64,000 bases of DNA from Alphaproteobacteria bacterium (lineage in GTDB: Bacteria; Pseudomonadota; Alphaproteobacteria; Caulobacterales; Aquidulcibacteraceae). The notes beneath the pieces were generated by a model. The model was not told where the DNA came from. It ran no database searches and was given only the letters and a program-made list of their open reading frames with translations. The position numbers were made by a program, and so were the translations under genes. The stretch spans positions 1 to 64,000 of the forward strand of contig JAGWZE010000005.1 in the NCBI GenBank assembly GCA_018969015.1. The letters are read 5' to 3'. Of this stretch, positions 7,998-19,872 are shown one piece after another (within the stretch, counting starts at the first letter, position 1; each line of letters starts with the position of its first letter).

Positions 7998-8169
7998 CGG
8001 CGTGCGTCCGGTGGATGTCGCCACGCTAACCGACACCGAGAAGGCGATGCTCTTCGATGCGGCCATGGCCGCGGTGGCGGAGGGCGCGGCGCCGCCGTCC
8101 GCCCACGTCCTCGCCGCGTTCGCCCGCGCCTATGTGGCGATCCGCGATCGCGAGGACGGGATCGTCTGA
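7966..8169 (+). CDS. short hypothetical protein
   Basis: A 67-residue frame (or 63 from the ATG at 7978) that overlaps the end of the XRE gene by 32 bp. Beyond the overlap its codons have the very high G/C third positions typical of true genes here. The product has an Ala-rich helical segment (FDAAMAAVAEGAAPPSAHVLAAFARAYVAIRD). I recognise no family. The overlap suggests coupling to the XRE gene; phaC begins 67 bp further on. Confidence 0.45.
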   Translation: MTALMRKPPSNGVRPVDVATLTDTEKAMLFDAAMAAVAEGAAPPSAHVLAAFARAYVAIRDREDGIV

Positions 8170-8236
8170 CCGGGCGCGGCGATCTGTCCCGGCGCGTGGC
8201 TGCGGGACCGCCACTTTTCTCGGGCACACCCGCGCC

Positions 8237-10087
8237 ATGCCCGACACCCACCCCCCCGCCGCGATCGCGCAAACCGCGCCGCCAGCGCCAGCGAACGACA
8301 CCGGCCCACGCGCGCCCGCTTCGACCACGGCGCCTGCGCCGAGCGCGCCGACATCGCCCCCACCTCGTCCCGCCGGCCTCGCCACCTTCGATCGCGCAGT
8401 GCGCGCCGCGGAGGCGCGCCTCACCCATGGCGTCTCGCCGATCGCGCTGGCCGGCGCGATCGGCGACTGGGCCGCGCATCTGGCGCGCTCGCCCGGCAAG
8501 CAGATCGATCTCGCCGCGCGCGCCTGGGCGGACGCCACCCGCCTCGCGCTGTATGCCGGCCGCGCCGCGATGGGCCTCGAGCGCACGCCCGTCACGCCCG
8601 ACACTCCCGGCGATCACCGTTTCGCCGAAGACGACTGGCAGCGCTTCCCGTTCGACGTGATGGCCGAAACGGCGAAGGCTGCAGAAGCCTGGTGGACGGA
8701 AGCGACGACCGATGTCCACGGCCTGCCGCCGCGCCGTGCCGAACAGGTGCGCTTCCTCGCGCATCAGGCGCTTGACGTGCTCTCGCCGAGCGCCATCCCC
8801 GCGCTCAACCCGACCGTCTGGCGCCGGACGATCGAGGAGGGCGGCGCCAATCTCGTCCGCGGCGCCGCGAACGTCGTCGATGATCTCGAACGTGCGCTGA
8901 CGCATCGCCCGCCCGCCGGCGCAGAGGCGTTCGTCGTCGGTCGCGACGTCGCCGCCACGCCTGGCGCGGTGGTCTATCGCAACCACTTCATCGAGGTGAT
9001 CCGCTACGCGCCGCAGACGCCCGACGTCTATGCCGAGCCGGTGCTCATCATTCCGGCCTGGATCATGAAGTACTACATCCTCGATCTCTCGCCGGAGAAC
9101 TCGCTGGTGCGCTGGCTCGTCGCGCGCGGACACACCGTGTTCGTCGTGTCGTGGCGCAATCCGGATGCGGAGGATCGCGATTTCGGCCTCGACGATTACC
9201 GCCGCCTCGGCGTGATGGCCGCGCTCGACGCCGTGACGGCCGCGTGTCCGGGCGAGAAAATTCACGCGTGCGGGTACTGCCTCGGCGGCACGATCCTCGC
9301 CATCGCCGCCGCGACGATGGCGCGTGACGGCGACACCCGCCTCGCCTCCCTCACCCTGATCGCCGCGCAGACCGATTTCGCGCAAGCGGGCGAACTGATG
9401 CTGTTCGTCGACGAAAGCCAGCTCGCCACGCTCGAAGACCTGATGTGGTCGCAGGGATATCTGGACACCACGCAGATGGCGGGCGCCTTCCAGGCGCTGC
9501 GCTCGAATGATCTCGTGTGGTCCAAGCGCATCCGCGACTATTGGCTCGGCGAACGCGAGCCGATGAGCGATCTGATGGCCTGGAACGCCGACCAGACGCG
9601 CATGCCCGCGAAGATGCATGCGCAGTATCTGCGCGGGCTTTTCCTCGAAAACAGGCTGTCCACCGGACGCTTCGCCGTCGATGGCTGCGTGATCTCCTTG
9701 GGCGACATCCGCGCGCCGATCTTCGCCGTCGGCACGGAAAAGGACCACATCGCGCCGTGGCGATCGGTGTACAAGATCGCGCTTACCGCCAAGACGCCCG
9801 TGACCTTCGCGCTGACGACGGGTGGGCACAATGTCGGCATCGTCAATCCGCCCCCGGCGGATCCCGCCGACGCCGGCGGTCGCAGCTATCGGCTCGGTGC
9901 GCGCGAGACGTGTGATCCCTATCGAGATCCGGAGTCCTGGGCGGCGCAGGCGCCGCGCTTCGCCGGCTCATGGTGGACGGCCTGGGGCGATTGGCTCGCC
10001 GCGCACTCTTCGCCCGAGCGCGTGACGCCGCCGCCGATGGGCCCCGTGCTCGCCGCCGCGCCGGGAACCTACGTCTTCCAGCGATGA
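8237..10087 (+). CDS. phaC: class I poly(3-hydroxyalkanoate) synthase
   Basis: Polymerises (R)-3-hydroxyacyl-CoA into storage PHA on cytoplasmic granules. The protein is 616 aa. A Pro/Ala-rich N-terminal extension (about residues 1-46) precedes the synthase. The lipase-like box GYCLGG (346-351) holds the catalytic Cys348; the Asp in GTEKDHIAPW and the His in GGHNVGI complete the triad. SAIPALNPTVWRRTIEEGGANLVRG is the conserved N-terminal PhaC block. No phaA, phaB, phaR or phasin gene is adjacent. It is convergent with folD, with 7 bp between the ends. Confidence 0.96.
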   Translation: MPDTHPPAAIAQTAPPAPANDTGPRAPASTTAPAPSAPTSPPPRPAGLATFDRAVRAAEARLTHGVSPIALAGAIGDWAAHLARSPGKQIDLAARAWADATRLALYAGRAAMGLERTPVTPDTPGDHRFAEDDWQRFPFDVMAETAKAAEAWWTEATTDVHGLPPRRAEQVRFLAHQALDVLSPSAIPALNPTVWRRTIEEGGANLVRGAANVVDDLERALTHRPPAGAEAFVVGRDVAATPGAVVYRNHFIEVIRYAPQTPDVYAEPVLIIPAWIMKYYILDLSPENSLVRWLVARGHTVFVVSWRNPDAEDRDFGLDDYRRLGVMAALDAVTAACPGEKIHACGYCLGGTILAIAAATMARDGDTRLASLTLIAAQTDFAQAGELMLFVDESQLATLEDLMWSQGYLDTTQMAGAFQALRSNDLVWSKRIRDYWLGEREPMSDLMAWNADQTRMPAKMHAQYLRGLFLENRLSTGRFAVDGCVISLGDIRAPIFAVGTEKDHIAPWRSVYKIALTAKTPVTFALTTGGHNVGIVNPPPADPADAGGRSYRLGARETCDPYRDPESWAAQAPRFAGSWWTAWGDWLAAHSSPERVTPPPMGPVLAAAPGTYVFQR

Positions 10088-11287: not shown

Positions 11288-11556
11288 CCGGGAATGAGAC
11301 GGGAAATGAACCCGAGGCCCAAGATCAAAACCATCGGCGCGAAATCCAACCCGCCAACCGTGGGAATGACATTTCTGATCGGCCGCAGGAGGGGATCAGT
11401 TAGACGGGAAGTGACGTCCCAGGTCGTGGCCACAAAGCGGTTGCGCCTGCTCACAATATCGAAACCAACAAGCCAGGAGATTACCACGTTGATCACCAAG
11501 ATGATCAGTATGAGATTGATGATCTGCTGGACGAGCCAGAAAACAGCCTCGATCAT
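11284..11556 (-). CDS. YggT family integral membrane protein
   Basis: A 90-residue protein with two hydrophobic segments (about residues 6-28 and 68-88) flanking the conserved RLTDPLLRPIRNVIPTVGGLDFAPMV stretch of the YggT family. The role is poorly defined; relatives are linked to osmotic stress and, in other lineages, membrane or cell-division organisation. It is the first gene of the yggT-DUF167-folD operon. The ATG at 11556 follows a purine-rich sequence on the minus strand. Confidence 0.93.
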   Translation of the reverse strand: MIEAVFWLVQQIINLILIILVINVVISWLVGFDIVSRRNRFVATTWDVTSRLTDPLLRPIRNVIPTVGGLDFAPMVLILGLGFISRLIPG

Positions 11557-11664
11557 GGGTCTCCCGCGCGCGTAACCTGGGCCGCATGTAGCCCTCGCCC
11601 CCGGTGTCTACAAGGCGAAGGCTTAACCGCCCCTCCATGCCGGGCCCCAGCGCGCCACGCTCCC

Positions 11665-11694
11665 TTGACGCCGGCCCCCGCCCGCTTCTATAGA
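11665..11694 (+). promoter_or_regulatory. promoter of tRNA-Ala
   Basis: TTGACG (11665-11670) and TATAGA (11689-11694) are separated by 18 bp, matching the sigma70-type consensus well. They would start transcription near 11701, about 9 bases before the mature tRNA. Confidence 0.65.
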
Positions 11695-11709
11695 CCCGCT
11701 TCCCGCGGA

Positions 11710-11785
11710 GGGCCTGTAGCTCAGCTGGGAGAGCGCTACGTTCGCATCGTAGAGGTCAGCGGTTCGATCCCGCTCAGGTCCACCA
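11710..11785 (+). tRNA. tRNA-Ala (anticodon CGC)
   Basis: A 76-base cloverleaf. The acceptor stem GGGCCTG pairs with CAGGTCC (one G-U), the D arm contains TAGCTCAGCTGGGAGAGC, and the anticodon stem CTACG/CGTAG closes the loop TTCGCAT with anticodon CGC (reads GCG). The T arm AGCGG-TTCGATC-CCGCT is perfect, and the 3' CCA is encoded (11783-11785). Compositionally different DNA begins immediately downstream, consistent with the tRNA being an insertion site. Confidence 0.97.
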
Positions 11786-12443
11786 AGGCTCCCTTGAACT
11801 TTTCGACGCAGCCGGTTGGCTGATCGGTGTTCAAGATACCAGCAAGATACCAAGTGGGCGGTAACCCCTGCCAAGCCGTTCCCCTTGATTGCTGGTTTTG
11901 TTGGCCTCGAGCGCCGGCTGGTATCGCAGCCTATCGAGAGCGGCGGCCAAGGAGCGGTTACGTCGGCGATCCGGGCTGCTCAAGTCATTCTCGCATACCC
12001 ATCCCGTCGCGGGCTCGCGCGATGCTGGAGGAGATCAGCGTAGCTGCCCCCCGCAGAGGTATCGCGTTGGGATCCCGCCGAGGCCGCTGTTGCGACACAG
12101 ACGCACTAGGCGAAGACGACCGCGATGGCGGGCTCCCGTTGCGTTAAGGCAAACACTAACGCGAAGCGCGGAGATCTGGCAGCCAGCGAAGGTTGGCCAC
12201 AGGTTGTGGCGGCCGTATCCGGATGACCTCGATGGCCGACAGGCTAGGCAGCGCTATCAAGCGATTGGCGATGATGTCGGCCAACGTCCGCACTTGCTGA
12301 ACTGCCCTGCGAACGCGTTGCGGCGTTTCGGATGACCGCCTCAAGGCGCCAGTTACCGCTATCCGGACTTCGCGAAGACGGATGTCCGTGCGTGCTTGGA
12401 TCCAGATCGAGAGATCTGGGGACAGGCCCTTCGATCGGACGGA
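11786..12443. other. stretch without a recognisable gene, left part of a putative island
   Basis: About 660 bp directly after the tRNA. It is less GC-rich than its surroundings. Frames are short, have no consistent codon bias and show no recognisable family. No integrase, transposase or 3'-tRNA repeat was seen. Best read as decayed insertion DNA. Confidence 0.5.
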
Positions 12444-12728
12444 TCAAACGTCGCCGCGTATGACCGGCGCCGCCGCCGAGCAAGCTTCGCTCCGCAGAAC
12501 GTCCAGCGCCTCTGAGTAAATCCGATGGCTCAAAACCTCTATGGACACTCGGCTATCGCAGTCGCTCCGCGAGACATCTCCGACGATCACGACAGGGATT
12601 TGCATGGCTCTTATCCAATCGGCCCCACGTAGCCTCTCACTCGGAGGCCGCTCGCGCCGATCGATCTTTAGCGCCCGTTGTTCGTTCAAAAGATCACGTC
12701 GAAACGTGCGCGTCTTCGCAGTGACCAT
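12444..12728 (-). CDS. hypothetical protein, doubtful
   Basis: A 94-residue frame from the ATG at 12728 (an in-frame TTG at 12737 would add three residues). It is rich in Arg and charged residues (TFRRDLLNEQRALKIDRRERPPSERL), followed by IPVVIVGDVSRSDCDSRVSIEVL. I recognise no family. Third positions are mixed, as in the other island genes. No good ribosome binding site is visible. In its favour, a perfect copy of the island palindrome (12740-12753) lies 11 bp upstream of this ATG. Confidence 0.3.
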   Translation of the reverse strand: MVTAKTRTFRRDLLNEQRALKIDRRERPPSERLRGADWIRAMQIPVVIVGDVSRSDCDSRVSIEVLSHRIYSEALDVLRSEACSAAAPVIRGDV

Positions 12729-12739
12729 GCGTGGCAAAT

Positions 12740-12753
12740 GACTGAATTCAGTC
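12740..12753. promoter_or_regulatory. island operator copy 1 (perfect palindrome)
   Basis: GACTGAATTCAGTC is a perfect 14 bp palindrome. It is the best copy of a motif found four times in the island (also 12916, 13952 and 17020) and nowhere else noticed in the window. It lies just upstream of the minus-strand frame starting at 12728. The size and symmetry suit a TetR-type operator. Confidence 0.6.
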
Positions 12754-12915
12754 CGCCTCGGGGGTTAGACGCCAAGAGAGAAAACCGGTCCGATCCGAGT
12801 GCTGCTCCGTCCTCTGGTCGCTCCGCTGCGATCCATCGTCGGAGCGGTCGGTGGCGCCGCATGGGCTGGGCGGCGCCACCGTAGCCACGTGCGGGCATAA
12901 GCCACGTTACGAGAT

Positions 12916-12929
12916 GACTGAATGCAGTC
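12916..12929. promoter_or_regulatory. island operator copy 2
   Basis: GACTGAATGCAGTC matches the perfect copy at 12740 except for one central base. It sits in a gene-free stretch about 450 bp upstream of the TetR start, so its target gene, if any, is unclear. Confidence 0.45.
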
Positions 12930-13266
12930 TCCAACTTCGGTGCGGCAGTTGCGACGGCGGCAACATGAACCGCCACGATCGCGCATTGTCCGTCTTCGTG
13001 CCTCAAAGCGCCGCCGGGTTTGGCGCGCAGCCCCGGCGCCCGTCCCAGCGGGAAACTTCGCGATCCACCGCAAACTTGATCGAATCGCGCATGACCGCCG
13101 CGCAGACATCCATCGTCGCGACCGCGATCGGAGCGATTCTGAGACGAAACGGCACGCAACCGGCGACCTATGCAACGAGGCCACTGAAAGAGGCCGGGAG
13201 AATAGCCGACCTGACAGTGTAACCAATGCGAAATCATTCCGCGGCGAACCAAAGATTAGGCAATGT

Positions 13267-13286
13267 CACTTAAGTTCAAATAAGTG
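13267..13286. promoter_or_regulatory. inverted repeat in the TetR promoter region
   Basis: CACTTA and TAAGTG are perfect inverted arms separated by 8 bp, about 90 bp upstream of the TetR ATG and next to a possible -10 element TACTAT (13291-13296). It may be a separate regulator site or part of the promoter; evidence is weak. Confidence 0.3.
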
Positions 13287-13374
13287 GCCTTACTATGTCA
13301 AAGGCTGGTCGCCGCGGTTGCACGCGCCGAGGAATTCAGGAAGTCCCTCGCACGGGAAAACAGCTGGGTGGACA

Positions 13375-13953
13375 ATGGCGGAGTCTGTACGAAAAACACG
13401 CATACTTAAGGCATGCGTCGATGCGCTGCGACAGAAGTCGCCGCGGGACATCAAAATGCAGGACATCGCCGCGGCATCCCGATCGAGCAACGCGCTCGTG
13501 GTCCTTCACTTCAAATCCCTCGACTTGCTCCTCGTCGAGTCGTGCCTCGAAGTGTTCAGAACGATAGCACGCCGCTGCATAGATCAAATCTCGGCTACGC
13601 GTACACTTCAACCAGGGTCTCGACCGTACCCACTGTCGTACACGGATGCGGCCCGCATCGTGACGGACCTCGAGACCTGGGAGTTTCGGTGCGTCGCCTA
13701 TGCCGAACCACGCATGGTGGCGTCCAAAAAACTTCCAGAGTTTCAGTCAATCGTCCTCCCGATTTTGAGGCAGCTCGCCTCGGAAACCGGCATACTGGAT
13801 GGCGCGCCGCCAGACCGCGCGCAGATCTGCGCGGACATATTCGTTCCGTACTACTCCCACGCAACGCGGTTGGTCGTTGAAGGCGCACTCACAAAACAGG
13901 CGTTTGCGGAACGGCTTGTCGACATCGCGCAGTTGGTTCGAAAAGCGGACTGA
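13375..13953 (+). CDS. TetR family transcriptional regulator
   Basis: A 192-residue protein from the ATG at 13375 (preceded by GGTGGA). The N-terminal 55 residues follow the TetR DNA-binding fold: RILKACVDALRQ (helix 1), then KMQDIAAASRSSNALVVLHFKSLDLLLVESCLEVF, equivalent to the usual HTH with the Tyr-x-x-Phe stretch replaced by VLHFKS. The rest is a helical ligand-binding domain without a recognisable inducer signature. Its stop codon lies at the edge of operator copy 3. It is the likely reader of the ACTGAA-type palindromes (inference from class and location). Codon third positions are less GC-biased than in flanking core genes. Confidence 0.85.
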   Translation: MAESVRKTRILKACVDALRQKSPRDIKMQDIAAASRSSNALVVLHFKSLDLLLVESCLEVFRTIARRCIDQISATRTLQPGSRPYPLSYTDAARIVTDLETWEFRCVAYAEPRMVASKKLPEFQSIVLPILRQLASETGILDGAPPDRAQICADIFVPYYSHATRLVVEGALTKQAFAERLVDIAQLVRKAD

Positions 13954-13965
13954 CTGAATTTAGTC
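13952..13965. promoter_or_regulatory. island operator copy 3
   Basis: GACTGAATTTAGTC, one base from the perfect palindrome, with flanks that extend the symmetry (TGACTGAATTTAGTCA). It lies between the TetR gene and the DUF2158 gene, about 70 bp before the latter's start, and so is well placed to control it. Confidence 0.55.
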
Positions 13966-14034
13966 ACTCCGAAAGAATTATGAGGAAATCAACCACGACG
14001 CCCCATGCTCCGCTCATGAGCGAGGGAGATGGTC

Positions 14035-14283
14035 ATGACCAGCTACAGCGTCGGAGACCGGGTTGTCTTTGCAGGTGAAACGCTGACCGTCGTCGGCGTC
14101 GATGGCGAAATGGCCGTCTGCCGATGGTTTACGGTTGGGCTAGAACTTCGATCGGCGACCTTGCCAATAGCGGCGCTTACGCCTGCCCGACGCGGTCCGT
14201 CTCGGGACAGCGACAAAATCCCCTTTCGCCCATTCGGTCATCGGTCTGAGCAGGGCGCGCCGACGTGGCCCGCGAACCCCTGA
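14035..14283 (+). CDS. DUF2158-like small protein
   Basis: An 82-residue protein from the ATG at 14035, which is 6 bp after GAGGGAG; the ATG at 14029 would abut the ribosome binding site. The first half reads YSVGDRVVFAGETLTVVGVDGEMAVCRWFTVG, then LRSATLPIAALTP. This resembles DUF2158 (YodC-like) small beta proteins, which share a GDxVxLxxGxxxMTV and CxWF pattern. The last 30 residues are polar and probably unstructured. Function is unknown. An island operator copy lies just upstream. Confidence 0.65.
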   Translation: MTSYSVGDRVVFAGETLTVVGVDGEMAVCRWFTVGLELRSATLPIAALTPARRGPSRDSDKIPFRPFGHRSEQGAPTWPANP

Positions 14284-14308
14284 CGTTAGGGAAGTCCGCG
14301 AAAAATCA

Positions 14309-14347
14309 AAAGATAGCCAAGTCAATCGTCATCGCCGCGCTATCTTT
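14309..14347. promoter_or_regulatory. inverted repeat upstream of the response regulator
   Basis: AAAGATAGC (14309-14317) and GCTATCTTT (14339-14347) are perfect 9 bp inverted arms with a 21 bp interval, in the 137 bp gap before the response regulator. This could be a two-site operator or an RNA hairpin; no run of T follows, so it is not an obvious terminator. Confidence 0.4.
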
Positions 14348-14420
14348 GGATCAGCCCAAAAGAACGCCTTGACGGCGCCGCATTTGCTTAGGGCTGCGGG
14401 AGCACAACCGTGGCGCGACC

Positions 14421-15053
14421 ATGAGCGACGCCAACAGTTTCGGAGCGAGCACGATGCGCCTGCTTGTCGCCGACGACCACGCCGCCTTCGGCGACGCGCT
14501 CGCGGCCTATATCGAGGCCACGACTGGGGACATCGCAGTCACAATCGTCGAGGGCCTCGATGAAGCGACGTCCGTGCTTTCAGCGCGAGCGATCGACCAG
14601 TTGCTGATCGATATCCGCATGCCCGGCGTCGAAGGCGTGCGCCACATCGTCGATCGGTGCCGGGAGGTCTATTCGGGCCCGATCCTCCTGATTTCGGGCT
14701 CCCCCGTGAAGCGCGATGTCGAACTCGCATTGAGCCTTGGCGTGTCTGGTTTCGTGACGAAAACGATGTCGGCAAAAGCGATCGTCGCCGCCATTCGGCT
14801 CGTCTCCTCGGGCGAGCGGTTTTTTCCGCTCTCCCTCTTGGGGCAAGGCGACGCGCGAACCGGCCCCGATCTCACCGACCGCGAAGCCGTGGCGTTGAGA
14901 ATGATTTGCAGTGGCGCGCCCAATAAACTGATCGCCAAAGAACTCGGGCTCGAGTTGCCGACCATAAAGGCGATCGTTCGATCCCTGTGCATCAAGTTCA
15001 ATGCGTCTAACCGAACCGGCGTTGCGATCCGCGCCATTGAGCTTGGCCTATGA
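14421..15053 (+). CDS. LuxR/NarL-type response regulator
   Basis: A 210-residue two-domain regulator. The receiver has Asp18/Asp19 (VADDH), phosphoacceptor Asp64 (LLIDIRMPG) and Lys114 (FVTKT). The C-terminal domain LTDREAVALRMICSGAPNKLIAKEL with PTIKAIVRSLCIKFNASNRT is a LuxR helix-turn-helix. Its stop overlaps the start of the hybrid kinase by 4 bp (ATGA), so the two are almost certainly a cognate pair. Base composition is lower in GC than the surrounding core genome. Confidence 0.93.
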   Translation: MSDANSFGASTMRLLVADDHAAFGDALAAYIEATTGDIAVTIVEGLDEATSVLSARAIDQLLIDIRMPGVEGVRHIVDRCREVYSGPILLISGSPVKRDVELALSLGVSGFVTKTMSAKAIVAAIRLVSSGERFFPLSLLGQGDARTGPDLTDREAVALRMICSGAPNKLIAKELGLELPTIKAIVRSLCIKFNASNRTGVAIRAIELGL

Positions 15054-16582
15054 GTTCGGTCGAAAGCTACGCTATCCCGCGCGAACTTGCCGAACTGCAA
15101 TCCGCCGTCGACCTGCTGCACGATGGGCTGGCGATCACCGACAAGGATGGCTTGTTCATATACATGAACCCGTCGCACGCGACGCTGTTCGACTACTCGG
15201 GGCCCGCCGACCTCATCGGAAAGCCTTGGTCGACATTGTATCAAGCGGACGTCGCGGACTGGTTTGGTCGTTTCGTGATGCCGCGACTGTTCTCGAACGG
15301 CGCCTGGCGCGGCGAGGCTGAAGGTGTTTCTGCGACGGGCCGACCGGTGCCGCAGGAAGTTAGCCTTACCGTGAGCGCGTCCGGCGGGATCATTTGCGTG
15401 ACTCGAGACATCGCCGGCCGAAAGCGGGACGAGGCATTGCTGGGCAGGCTGCGGGACTGGCTCGCCGACGCAAGCCTCGAAGCGACTTTGCAGCGGAAAC
15501 TCGACCGCACCTGTCACGACATATCGAACTACTTGGCTGCAGCGGACGCCCGCCTGGCGACGGCGATCGCCTGCACCGCCGACCCGCGTATGGGCGCGCA
15601 TCTCGGCGCTGCAGCGCATGCGATCAAGGGCGCTCGAGACACCGCCGCGTCCGCGCGATCCGACTTCAGCCGCGAAGACACGACCCAGCCCGTTGATCTC
15701 GTGCCCCTTGTCCGGCGTGCTGCGCTTTTGCGGGCGAGCGATCAGAACCCCGCCGGATCGGTCAGATTCGATTGTGCCTTTGCTGTGGCCACATGCGACG
15801 TGGATCCACTCGTCTTCATGCGGGCGTTGACCAACTTGATCCACAATGCCTTCGAGGCGGGAAGCGGAGACGAAGTCCTTCTGACGCTTGCGCAAGAGCC
15901 CCCCGACTTCCAAGCGGACGCCTACACTTGGCGATCGGGCGATGGCCCATCAGGTCCGCGAATCGTCCTGTCCGTGCGCGATCGTGGCTGCGGTATTGCA
16001 CAAGAGAACATCAGCCAAATTTTCAACGCGTACTTTAGCACAAAAACCGGAAAGGCCGTTGCGACGCGCGGCCTGGGTCTGGATGCCGTGATGGAGCTCG
16101 TGGCGCGTGCGCGTGGGGCGGTCAAAGTGTCGAGCGCACCCAACCTCGGATCTCAATTCGACATTCTGCTGCCGGCCTCGGAAATCGTGGGACTCGCCGC
16201 GACCAGACCGGCGCCTGCCACCCGTCGAATCAAGAGCGTCATCCTGGTCGACGACGATCCTGATTGGCTGGATCGCATGAGCGCGGCGTTCGACGACCAG
16301 TCCATCGCGGTCTCGAAATTCAGCTCGGCGCGCGACGTCGTCGACGATCTCTCGCGCTCCGGCCTGGAATCCGACGCCATCATTATCGACCGGTTTTTGG
16401 GGCCAGGCGGCGATGGCCTCTCGCTGGGCGGCCTCCTTCGCCGGCGCTATCCGGCATCTCGGCTCATCTGCCTGTCATCAGCGCCGCCGGAGCCCGCAAT
16501 AGCCGCAGACTTCGACGCCATTCTCGACAAATCGGATGGCATTGATGCGGCCGTCGCGGCGATTGTCGGCCGCCAAGCCTGA
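15050..16582 (+). CDS. PAS-containing hybrid sensor histidine kinase
   Basis: A soluble 510-residue kinase without membrane segments. A PAS domain occupies about residues 15-125 (LLHDGLAITDKDGLFIYMNP). The dimerisation box LDRTCHDISNYLAAADARL has phosphoacceptor His156 in an HDxxN context. The ATPase domain shows the N box (Asn266 in LIHNAFEAG), DRGCGI (311-316), the F box and RGLGL (340-344). A receiver (about 395-508) has DDD 401-403, phosphoacceptor Asp447 and Lys494. No HPt domain is present. It is coupled to the response regulator upstream (ATGA). A cytosolic signal is implied. Confidence 0.92.
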   Translation: MSSVESYAIPRELAELQSAVDLLHDGLAITDKDGLFIYMNPSHATLFDYSGPADLIGKPWSTLYQADVADWFGRFVMPRLFSNGAWRGEAEGVSATGRPVPQEVSLTVSASGGIICVTRDIAGRKRDEALLGRLRDWLADASLEATLQRKLDRTCHDISNYLAAADARLATAIACTADPRMGAHLGAAAHAIKGARDTAASARSDFSREDTTQPVDLVPLVRRAALLRASDQNPAGSVRFDCAFAVATCDVDPLVFMRALTNLIHNAFEAGSGDEVLLTLAQEPPDFQADAYTWRSGDGPSGPRIVLSVRDRGCGIAQENISQIFNAYFSTKTGKAVATRGLGLDAVMELVARARGAVKVSSAPNLGSQFDILLPASEIVGLAATRPAPATRRIKSVILVDDDPDWLDRMSAAFDDQSIAVSKFSSARDVVDDLSRSGLESDAIIIDRFLGPGGDGLSLGGLLRRRYPASRLICLSSAPPEPAIAADFDAILDKSDGIDAAVAAIVGRQA

Positions 16583-16590
16583 GGCTCTCC

Positions 16591-16609
16591 AACTAGGGAT
16601 TTCCTAGTT
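16591..16609. terminator. hairpin between convergent kinase and receiver genes
   Basis: AACTAGG-GATTT-CCTAGTT is a perfect 7 bp stem with a 5-base loop. It sits in the 21 bp gap between two convergent genes and overlaps the receiver gene's stop codon. It is probably a bidirectional terminator, although there is no T-run. Confidence 0.5.
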
Positions 16610-16972
16610 CGGTTCGTGCCCGAGAACGTCGACGGCCCGCAAGGCTATGACGAGCGCCTCCGCATCCAAGGGCTTCCACAGCGCCCAGTCGAACCCAGCC
16701 TCAAAAAAAGCGAGCCTCGATAGATCGGTGCGCGACGTCAGCGCGATAACGATCGTCTCGGGAGAAACCGCACGGATCTCGCGGATCAGATCGAAGCCGG
16801 ACTTTTCGCCCATCTCGATGTCCGTAATGATCAAATCATGATCGGCCGCGTTGAACGCCGTCAGCGCCTCGTCGACATTCGCCGCGCATTCGACTTCCGC
16901 GCCAATAGCCACGATGAGTGACGCAGCCATGCGTCTCATGTTCTCGTTATCGTCGACGATCAATACACGCAT
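16604..16972 (-). CDS. stand-alone receiver (CheY-like) protein
   Basis: A 122-residue single-domain response regulator. It has Asp7/Asp8 (IVDDN), phosphoacceptor Asp51 (IITDIEMG), Thr79 and Lys100 (ALWKPL). There is no output domain, so it probably acts by protein contact or as a phosphate sink for the neighbouring hybrid kinase (inference). Operator copy 4 lies 48 bp upstream of its ATG. It is convergent with the kinase gene. Confidence 0.92.
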   Translation of the reverse strand: MRVLIVDDNENMRRMAASLIVAIGAEVECAANVDEALTAFNAADHDLIITDIEMGEKSGFDLIREIRAVSPETIVIALTSRTDLSRLAFFEAGFDWALWKPLDAEALVIALRAVDVLGHEPN

Positions 16973-17352
16973 GCTGCAGGCATAGCAGACATCACGATCG
17001 GCGACCGGCCCTATCAGCCGACTGAACTCAGTAACCCTAATTGCATCGGCTGCGTAGCTCGCAGCGAATACGATTGAGGGCCTGACCTAGCCCGCCAGGC
17101 CCTCAAGGTATGTTACGCAGCAGGCTGGGTGGGGGACGACTGCGCAACGATCGTGGATGCTTTATGCCGAAACGATAGGCGCTATTGGCCGCCTCGTCTC
17201 GGCATCTTCCGTCCATTCACGCTGACTTTGGATATCTCTGAGAAGGGAGCGAACAAGACCAGCGCACGCGCCAAAAGATATGCCCGCTCTCGGAAGATCA
17301 TTAGCATCCGGCTCTGCAGGGAGGTCATCCTTTCGGAAAAAGGGAGCGTCGA
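16973..17352. other. 380 bp stretch without a convincing gene
   Basis: Holds operator copy 4 near its left end and the promoter region of the receiver gene. One Cys/Arg-rich frame (17129-17443) runs through it but overlaps the better-supported small membrane-protein gene and has no family features. Confidence 0.5.
17020..17033. promoter_or_regulatory. island operator copy 4
   Basis: GACTGAACTCAGTA keeps both ACTGA/CAGT arms of the motif with one central mismatch. It is positioned 48-61 bp upstream of the receiver gene start on the minus strand, a plausible repressor position. Confidence 0.5.
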
Positions 17353-17562
17353 ATGTCGACGATTGAGCAACCTTGTCTCGCGAACGCATTGCCGCCATTG
17401 CGCGCCGTCGAGAATTCGATGCCGACCGCCAGTTCGTACTTAAGAACTGGCCCTATTCCCGACGATGGCGACCGGCGCTGGATACTTCCCGGTTACGCCG
17501 CCGCGACATTGTGCTCCGTCGGACTCTGGCTTGCTGCCTTCCGAGCTCTTGGCGCCCTTTAG
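17353..17562 (+). CDS. small putative membrane protein
   Basis: A 69-residue product. The N-terminal 40 residues are polar; the C-terminal part WILPGYAAATLCSVGLWLAA is a single hydrophobic segment ending in RALGAL. The ATG at 17353 follows AGGGAG at a 6 bp distance, which is good support for translation. No family recognised. It lies in the island, 143 bp before another membrane-anchored protein gene. Confidence 0.5.
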   Translation: MSTIEQPCLANALPPLRAVENSMPTASSYLRTGPIPDDGDRRWILPGYAAATLCSVGLWLAAFRALGAL

Positions 17563-17705
17563 ATTCGCGGTTCGCATGAACCGCGTGTGATAAATGAGGT
17601 ACGACGTCGCCGCTCGACGAACCGCCGCGCGCGCCGGCGGAAGTACGCCTTGGACGACCCGAGAACGGCGCCGTACGCTGAGGTCCCGCGACACTGGAGG
17701 ACGGC

Positions 17706-18218
17706 ATGCAAATCCAGCCGTTCGTCTACACCCAAGCCTACGCACTCGTTCGTGATTTTGGCGGGCAAGTCCTGAATTCGATCCTCGTCGGCGGAGTCGT
17801 GGCCTGGATCTTGTCTCTCGGTCGCGAACGGGAAAAAAGAGCTGCGCGCGCCCAGGTGGCCGAGCAGCTTTGCCGGGTCTTCGGCATGCGGCTGTTTCGG
17901 TCCCGAACCACCAAAAAGCTCGAACTCGAACCTCTGGCCGGCCAATCCCTGCAGGGCTGGGCGTCACTCGATCGGCTTCAGTGGAACCTCGATCTGCACC
18001 GCGCGGACATCAACACGAGAGAGCTGACGATCGTGCAGGGCGTCATCGAAGACTTGATGAGGATCAAAGCCAACCAATTCACAGCCGAACTGCACATCCT
18101 CGACGACTATCTGCCAGCAGCCGCAAAGGCCTTTCTGCCGCCTCGACTTCGGGCGCAGTTTCTGGAGCAGGCCAAATACGTGGGACTGCCGAGCCTCATC
18201 GACGCGCCTCCACGATAG
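17706..18218 (+). CDS. hypothetical membrane-anchored protein
   Basis: A 170-residue protein with a good ribosome binding site (GGAGGA). One hydrophobic segment (about residues 21-40, LNSILVGGVVAWILSLG) is followed by a basic stretch and a helical cytosolic domain with regularly spaced Leu/Ile (QWNLDLHRADINTRELTIVQGVIEDLMRI). No family recognised. It is the last gene of the compositionally distinct island and is convergent with the acyl-CoA ligase gene, 34 bp away. Confidence 0.65.
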   Translation: MQIQPFVYTQAYALVRDFGGQVLNSILVGGVVAWILSLGREREKRAARAQVAEQLCRVFGMRLFRSRTTKKLELEPLAGQSLQGWASLDRLQWNLDLHRADINTRELTIVQGVIEDLMRIKANQFTAELHILDDYLPAAAKAFLPPRLRAQFLEQAKYVGLPSLIDAPPR

Positions 18219-18252
18219 GCGTGTTCCCGGTAGCGCGACGGGCGCGCCTCCC

Positions 18253-19872
18253 TCACCCCGTCAGCAGCGCCTTGTACCGCTCCCGCAGCACCTTCTTGTC
18301 GATCTTGCCCGTCGCCGTGAGCGGGACGGTATCGAACACGACGGCGTCCGGCGTCCACCATTTCACGATGCGCGGCTGCAGGAAGGCGAGGACGTCCTCC
18401 GCGGTGATCGCCGCGCCCTCGTGGGGCTCGATGACCAGCACCGGGCGCTCCTCCCATTTGGGATGCGGCGCGCCGATGACGGCGGCGATCTTCACGCCCG
18501 GGCAGGCGACGGCGACGTTCTCCAGATCGATCGAGGAGATCCACTCGCCGCCGGACTTGATCACATCCTTTTTGCGATCGGTGATCCGCATGAAGCCGAA
18601 CGAGTCGAGCGTGGCGATGTCGCCGGTGTCGAACCAGCCGTCGGCGTCGGCGACGTCCTTGGCGCCGCGGAAATAGCGCTGGATCGTCCACGGGCCGCGC
18701 ACCATCAGCGCGCCGGAGGTCTCGCCGTCGCGCGGCGCGTCCTCGCCCTCGTCCGTCACGACGCGCAGTTCGATGCCGAATTGCAGCCGCCCCTGGCGCG
18801 TCCAGATCGCGTCGTCCAGCTTGTCCTCGCCGAGCGCGGCGAGCGCGGGCGTCGCGGTGGCCACGACACCGAGCGGCGTCGTCTCCGTCATGCCCCAGAT
18901 CTGCAGCACCTGCACGCCGTAGGCGGTCTTGAACGTCTCGGCCATCGCGCGCGGCACCGCGGAGCCGCCGATCACCACGCGCGCGAGCTTGCCCGGCCGC
19001 TGCCCCGTTTGCTGCAGGTGGGCGAGGTACATCGTCCAGATCGTCGGCACGCCGCCGGAGAACGTGACGCCCTCCGAAACGATCAGCTCCTGGAGGCTTG
19101 CGCCGTCCATCTTTTCGCAGGGCAGAACCAGCTTGCAGCCGTTGATCGGCGCCGCGAACGGCAGGCCCCAGGCCGTCGCGTGGAACATCGACGAGCACGG
19201 CATCACCACGTCGAACGCCGAGAAGCCGAAGGCGCTCGCGAGGCCCGAGGCCATCGCGTGCAGAACCACCGCCCGGTGGGAATAAAGCACGCCCTTGGGA
19301 TCGCCCGTCGTGCCCGAGGTGTAGCAGAGCACCGCACCGGCGTTCTCGTCGACGGTGGGCCAAACGAACCCGTCCTGCTCGGCGGCGATCAGAGCCTCGT
19401 AGCACAGCGCGCCGACCGCGCCGGCCGCATGGGCGCCCTCACCGCTCAGCATCACGAACGTGCGCACGTGCGTGAGCTGCGGGGCCAGCCGCTCCACCAG
19501 CGGCAGGAACGTCTTGTCGAACAGGAGCACGCGCGCTTCGGCGTGGTTGAGGATGTAGACGATCTGCTCGTCGAACAGGCGCGGGTTGACGGTGTTGAGC
19601 ACAGCGCCGAGGCCCGGAACCGCATAGAACAGCTCGAAATGGCGGTGCGTGTTCCAGGCCAGCGTCGCCACCCGATCGCCCGACCGCACCCCCAGCTTCT
19701 GCAGCGCCTTCGCGCAGCGCTCCGTGCGCGCCATCTCGGCCCCATAGGAGGAGCGGACGATCGGCTCGTCCACGAGGCGCGACACGATCTCGACGCCGGC
19801 ATGGGCGGTCGCGGCGAACTTCAGAATGTCGATGATCTGCAGCGGCCTCGGCTGCATCAGGCCAGGGATCAT
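18253..19872 (-). CDS. acyl-CoA ligase (AMP-binding, AlkK/DmdB-like)
   Basis: Activates a medium- or long-chain carboxylic acid to its CoA thioester via an acyl-AMP. The protein is 539 aa from the ATG at 19872 (MIPGLMQPRPLQ, the N-terminus usual in this subfamily); an ATG at 19902 would add ten residues. Motifs seen are the P-loop YTSGTTGDPKGV, IWGMTETTPLG, GWFDTGDIATLD with the adenylate-binding Asp, and the catalytic C-terminal Lys in PLTATGKIDKK. Substrate is not readable; homologues act on fatty acids or methylmercaptopropionate. It is divergent from the dehalogenase gene. Confidence 0.92.
   Translation of the reverse strand: MIPGLMQPRPLQIIDILKFAATAHAGVEIVSRLVDEPIVRSSYGAEMARTERCAKALQKLGVRSGDRVATLAWNTHRHFELFYAVPGLGAVLNTVNPRLFDEQIVYILNHAEARVLLFDKTFLPLVERLAPQLTHVRTFVMLSGEGAHAAGAVGALCYEALIAAEQDGFVWPTVDENAGAVLCYTSGTTGDPKGVLYSHRAVVLHAMASGLASAFGFSAFDVVMPCSSMFHATAWGLPFAAPINGCKLVLPCEKMDGASLQELIVSEGVTFSGGVPTIWTMYLAHLQQTGQRPGKLARVVIGGSAVPRAMAETFKTAYGVQVLQIWGMTETTPLGVVATATPALAALGEDKLDDAIWTRQGRLQFGIELRVVTDEGEDAPRDGETSGALMVRGPWTIQRYFRGAKDVADADGWFDTGDIATLDSFGFMRITDRKKDVIKSGGEWISSIDLENVAVACPGVKIAAVIGAPHPKWEERPVLVIEPHEGAAITAEDVLAFLQPRIVKWWTPDAVVFDTVPLTATGKIDKKVLRERYKALLTG

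Follow-up and report, generated by a model that had tools for sequence, protein, structure and literature searches.

What might four near-identical copies of a 14-bp palindrome be doing within a few kilobases of one bacterial genome? The question is raised by a 64,000-nucleotide stretch of DNA (positions 1 to 64,000 of contig JAGWZE010000005.1, assembly GCA_018969015.1; hereafter the window) from an alphaproteobacterium of the Aquidulcibacteraceae, in the order Caulobacterales. The copies lie in an island with a guanine plus cytosine (G+C) content of 58-64%, compared with 67-74% in its flanks, and they stand among genes for a TetR-type regulator, a NarL/FixJ-type response regulator, a hybrid histidine kinase and a stand-alone receiver. 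A first-pass annotation of this DNA suggested that the palindromes mark a self-contained private regulon in which the TetR protein controls a signaling module. We conclude that the palindrome probably serves as the switch for a small, private circuit of genes. The sites are best read as those of a private regulon because their copies are clustered in this genome only, and because an outlying copy again precedes a receiver-like gene.

A scan of the window with the pattern ACTGAAnnnAGT gives matches at positions 12741, 12917, 13953 and 17021, and the four palindromes proposed in the first-pass annotation are indeed present. Specifically, site 1 (GACTGAATTCAGTC, 12740-12753) is a perfect 14-bp palindrome. 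Site 2 (GACTGAATGCAGTC, 12916-12929), site 3 (GACTGAATTTAGTC, 13952-13965) and site 4 (GACTGAACTCAGTA, 17020-17033) complete the set, with two of these three differing from site 1 by one base and the remaining one by two. Site 3 overlaps the stop codon of the TetR gene and ends 63 bp ahead of an ATG at 14029, and by reading of the sequence its flank symmetry, with one break outside the core, extends the palindrome to 24 bp (13947-13970). The gene at 14029 had been labeled DUF2158, and although the site is where it was said to be, this family label finds no support, since the 14029-14283 product has no Pfam match at an expectation value (E) of up to 5. Site 4 lies 47 bp ahead of the ATG of the stand-alone receiver, as first reported. 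Together with a fifth copy on another contig, described below, the three best targets have site-to-ATG gaps of 63, 47 and 61 bp. A position 47-63 bp before an ATG is a usual distance for a promoter operator. Duplication of flanking sequence was also considered as the origin of the four copies, and it was rejected because the repeat family is just 16 bases long.

Is this clustering more than chance? The four palindromes span 4.3 kb, and ACTGAAnnnAGT matches five times in the window (the perfect palindrome being counted on each strand) against 0.08 expected, a count that none of 100 window shuffles reaches. Likewise, islands simulated at the same composition hold a mean of 0.0145 matches, with a maximum of one in 2000 simulations. 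The excess is smaller under a more permissive control: when the 14-mer is allowed three mismatches, the window holds 4 matches against 1.13 expected, a number reached in 2 of 100 shuffles. The motif was chosen after the fact, and we therefore simulated the occurrence of any perfect palindrome with four such relatives in 6.4 kb. With 12-mers and at most one mismatch, 3 of 1500 simulations gave this outcome; with 14-mers and at most two mismatches, the figure was again 3 of 1500. A looser definition (12-mers with up to two mismatches) yielded 11 of 400, or 1 of 400 when restricted to palindromes of at most six G+C. Families of at least four similar palindromes abound outside the island, in the GC-rich part of the window (11 of 14 tiles), and clustering alone is therefore weak evidence; among palindromes of at most six G+C, none of the 14 tiles has more than one family member. 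The case for the sites rests on their scarcity in the genome and on their position before reading frames.

The pattern occurs at five places in the entire genome (3,398,043 bases in 69 contigs), namely the four in the island and one at position 8590 of a contig that we call C6. A backward control pattern also has five matches, and thus the genome as a whole holds no more copies than chance would give, but their local density exceeds chance. Allowing the 14-mer up to two mismatches adds two places, on contigs C38 and C53, both inside long reading frames. The genome scan therefore does not show the many unlinked copies that would have spoken against a private regulon; its single additional pattern copy precedes a receiver-like gene. 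The site is enriched at the candidate member genes and rare elsewhere, as a private regulon should be, and the claim of confinement to one island falls with the copy on C6.

Relatives tell a similar story. In the family, a place for the 14-mer with at most one mismatch is present in 11 of 60 genomes, this one included, and the other ten have a single place each; the backward control matches 4 of 60. The ten single matches in other family genomes fall inside the longest reading frames in seven cases and outside them in three; none adjoins a convincing homologue of an island gene, the nearest approach being one 41-residue match (locus L038, E=0.003). Across the order, 84 of 398 genomes have such a place, compared with 35 of 398 for the backward control (counted from the table). 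Close-together matches occur in this genome and in none of the 397 others, among the matches listed at up to one mismatch, which bears out the local part of the private-regulon proposal. Again among the matches listed, two or three copies turn up in four further genomes of the order, where they are separated by at least 0.4 Mb or lie on different contigs. A general receiver-gene motif was also tried as a candidate and rejected for the receiver loci fetched. None of these 30 loci, drawn from 67 listed matches (L079 and L080 repeat two of them; island receivers aside, the rest were not fetched), has the 14-mer within two mismatches. The best, L048, has three, and the C6 locus, L078, has two.

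The fifth site (GACTAAATTCAGTT, C6:8590) ends 61 bp ahead of the ATG of a 123-residue frame at C6:8664-9035. Its product matches the stand-alone receiver of the first island at 28% identity (E=5e-5, against eight sequences), and a profile built from 31 receivers of the same genome gives it 22.4 bits, where the best of 200 shuffles reaches 5.3 bits. When the same profile was applied to 134 other frames of the window, four passed, all of which overlap real receivers. Pfam offers AmiR_N at 5.4e-4, below the cut-off of that model, and a search of solved structures with the product was uninformative. The profile alignment shows another residue in place of the conserved lysine, and the protein, which starts MHVLIMSPD, lacks the N-terminal acidic pair; we therefore call it a pseudo-receiver. 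The place of this site before a receiver-like gene played no part in the choice of the motif, and for this reason we count it as independent support. The gene after the pseudo-receiver resembles flavin adenine dinucleotide-binding monooxygenases (locus L028, 9141-10280), and it may be a further partner in this second island.

How might such sites work? We propose, with a probability of roughly 0.4, that they are the operators of a two-island regulon with the TetR protein as a repressor released by a ligand, a reading drawn from sequence. This figure and the weights given below to other readings are judgments rather than computed values. A dimeric regulator made by the island would bind ACTGAATTCAGT-type sites at promoters of three targets: the unit 14029-16582, encoding the small protein, the response regulator and the hybrid kinase; the stand-alone receiver (16972-16604); and the degenerate receiver on C6. 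The TetR gene may itself be a fourth target, reached by a transcript perhaps under the control of site 2, which lies 445 bp ahead of it. With TetR as the repressor, the phospho-signaling set would be made only when the ligand is present. We treat 14029-16582 as a single transcript, and this is an assumption because the response regulator starts 455 bp after site 3 and follows a 137-bp gap that holds an inverted repeat of its own.

Among the candidate readers of these sites, the TetR-type protein (13375-13953, plus strand, 192 residues) leads. It is the only one-component regulator recognized among the frames scanned. TetR proteins read short continuous palindromes. The helix-turn-helix is weakly recognized: the NCBIfam BetI model matches residues 3-74 at E=6.8e-5 (22.6 bits against a cut-off of 201), and the solved TetR structure 3egq in the PDB matches residues 7-65 at E=3.3e-4. 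The codon-use score of the frame, obtained only together with its upstream extension, is -0.04. As in the TetR-family local repressor circuits, of which BetI is the nearest named profile, the island combines a BetI-like helix-turn-helix with short continuous palindromes adjoining the regulator gene. The BetI box itself has half-sites close to ATTGAA and two more bases between them than the island palindrome. Unlike BetI systems, the island has no choline genes recognized among the frames scanned, and unlike TetR/BetI circuits in general, its regulator has no site at its own start.

Several observations weigh against the proposed regulon and its TetR reader. Pfam TetR_N recognizes the helix-turn-helix alone, and below its threshold (E=0.036, 14.3 bits against a cut-off of 24), and the AlphaFold model of the protein by itself, while all-helical, has a predicted local distance difference test (pLDDT) score of 38.9 and is unusable. 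Many TetR regulators control themselves, yet the site nearest to the TetR start is the one 445 bp away; a partial site (AATTCAG, 13333-13340) formerly reported about 35 bp before the ATG did not hold up, as the best local match has 6 mismatches in 14 positions. We found no orthologue that could link the motif to TetR by co-occurrence. Searches of 60 relatives at 1e-5, of plasmids and, with just six peptide patterns, of genome_contigs gave none, and a search at 1e-4 of another 298 genomes from the order gave a single 32% match that covers 62 residues. The only frames that follow sites 1 and 2 are doubtful. Site 1 is 11 bp ahead of a minus-strand ATG at 12728, whose frame (12444-12737) was rightly called doubtful, with a non-coding-like codon-use score of -0.088, and site 2 is 35 bp ahead of the plus-strand ATG of frame 12965-13222. 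The small protein after site 3 is codon-neutral and has no family, and should it prove not to be a gene, the first start after the site would be the distant one of the response regulator. No sigma-70-like promoters were found in the region, where 1.5 were expected, and a search of the genome with the Pfam receiver model at E up to 1 did not return the C6 protein. Finally, the island encodes a second, equally local candidate in its NarL/FixJ-type response regulator.

This response regulator is the main rival, and no result separates the two. The same sites could be operators read by the protein encoded at 14421-15053, which would be phosphorylated by the hybrid kinase and would activate its own operon together with the genes of the stand-alone receiver and the pseudo-receiver on C6, giving positive feedback as well as phosphate sinks. 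We consider this possible but somewhat doubtful. The sites do precede the unit leading to the regulator as well as the other receiver genes; by sequence, NarL and VraR are the solved structures nearest to it, and it resembles the DevR/OsdR, LiaR/VraR and NarL systems in joining a receiver to a GerE domain, in an overlapping kinase gene and in upstream palindromes. Proteins of this class bind palindromes and in some cases control themselves, as has been described for the autoregulatory devR site and the OsdR consensus AGGGCCGATCGGCCCT (PMC5069765), the LiaR site ATAcGACtcccgGTCtTAT (PMC7191749) and RcsB (PMC5829831). However, the island half-sites are spaced differently from those in the LiaR and OsdR patterns cited. 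Moreover, four pairs of adjacent genes for PAS hybrid kinases and LuxR-type regulators from the same order (L029-L032; kinase 29-35% identity, regulator 34-38%) lack ACTGAAnnnAGT in the stretches compared and have no TetR match at E 0.01. In these pairs the kinase precedes the regulator, whereas in the island it follows. The palindrome families near related kinase pairs consist, among the matches listed, of GC-rich words only. Directly ahead of the response-regulator gene, the 11-bp inverted repeat CAAAAGATAGC ... GCTATCTTTGG (14307-14349; 10 of 11 positions complementary, 21-nt gap) could be its own operator.

The remaining explanations carry less weight. A regulator encoded elsewhere in the genome might read the sites, given that neither local candidate is proven, that the fifth site is on another contig, and that the motif turns up somewhat more often across the order than its backward control does. 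For such a regulator one would expect sites beyond the islands, but the only two, at up to two mismatches, are those inside long reading frames, and in relatives the copies are single or far apart; we regard this option as distinctly unlikely. Chance, in the form of an after-the-fact motif in an AT-richer stretch, draws on the frequent palindrome families of the tiles, the loosest simulation and the shuffles that reach four 14-mer matches, but the tile families are GC-rich, the tighter simulations seldom produce such a cluster, and the motif was chosen without regard to where the fifth copy lies, which leaves chance very improbable. Scarcely probable, too, is a reading of the palindromes as sites at which a former mobile element recombined, replicated or was partitioned. 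Both islands adjoin a transfer RNA (tRNA) gene or a tRNA-like 3' remnant, and sites 1 and 2 lie in apparently non-coding DNA. Nevertheless, no recombinase or partition gene was recognized among the island proteins scanned, and three of the five sites fall 47-63 bp ahead of better-supported frames.

The other genes of the island can be characterized as follows, with codon use in favor of the response regulator, the kinase and the stand-alone receiver. The response regulator (plus strand, codon score 0.28) has Response_reg (8.1e-15) and GerE (2.7e-9) domains, both above their Pfam cut-offs, and it has an adjoining partner in the hybrid kinase (15050-16582, plus strand, codon score 0.19), whose gene overlaps its own by 4 bases. 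The kinase combines PAS, histidine kinase ATPase and receiver parts, with the receiver (28.9 bits) just below the Pfam cut-off of 30.2. The stand-alone receiver (16604-16972, minus strand) is clear (Response_reg 1.4e-20, codon score 0.29). The small protein (14029-14283, plus strand, 84 residues, codon use -0.01) is predicted to form a five-strand small barrel, and a fold search with it gave nothing significant (best E 0.056). The inverted repeat at 14307-14349 is unrelated to the palindrome and may be a separate operator. Kinase relatives at 29-35% identity are found in 5 of 100 relatives at 1e-20, none in 384 other genomes of the class at 1e-45 (three candidates scored per genome) and none in plasmids at 1e-20. 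For the response regulator, genome_contigs holds three actinobacterial loci at 26-33% and the viral contigs none, and the small protein has no match in plasmids. Beyond the receiver, a 170-residue frame (17706-18218) has a codon score of 0.309 and no significant family match.

On its left the island adjoins a tRNA-Ala(CGC) gene (11710-11785, plus strand), yggT and folD. Of 10 relatives compared around folD, 7 have this tRNA next to yggT/folD, and in none of the seven is it followed by island genes; the sequence after it differs from that of the window. One relative, G026, is an exception in having a receiver-like stretch (L126, 8645-8983; 31% to the stand-alone receiver) about 1.6 kb past its tRNA-Ala. 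In the two genomes that hold its closest copies, the right neighbor, labeled acyl-CoA-ligase-like, does not share a contig with folD. The window contains no exact repeat of at least 13 bases of the tRNA end, Rfam reports only the tRNA over 11500-18500, and the non-coding stretches 11786-13375 and 17034-17706 show no receiver remnants. About 0.4 kb before the C6 site, the sequence reads like the 3' half of a tRNA-Lys (minus strand, L028 ~8139-8183), a remnant unreported by ARAGORN and Rfam. Near the tRNA end in both islands is a short doubled word (GATACCAGCAAGATACCA, window ~11835-11852; TCTGGCACACTTCTGGCACAC, L028 ~8312-8332). These doubled words recall integrase arm sites; no integrase was recognized among the frames scanned. 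Both islands may have been acquired.

Local regulons with palindromic operators are well known, and TetR regulators usually control a transporter or enzyme. We suggest, as a rather unlikely proposal, that here one operator joins two islands into a regulon made almost solely of phosphate-receiving proteins. Its members would be the response regulator, the hybrid kinase, the intact stand-alone receiver and the second-island receiver that lacks the acidic pair and lysine, such that a one-component regulator would set the dose of a whole phosphorelay and its decoys. A regulon of such make-up in two islands was not found in a limited search of the open-licence literature, and the word ACTGAATTCAGT occurs there in one paper, which deals with a different topic. 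All of the types of parts are familiar, and the interest of the system is therefore moderate. If our reading is true, five sites, two candidate readers and three target units would nonetheless make it a convenient test system. It would then also be a compact example of acquired signaling genes that bring their own switch, and it would show two islands joined by a shared operator.

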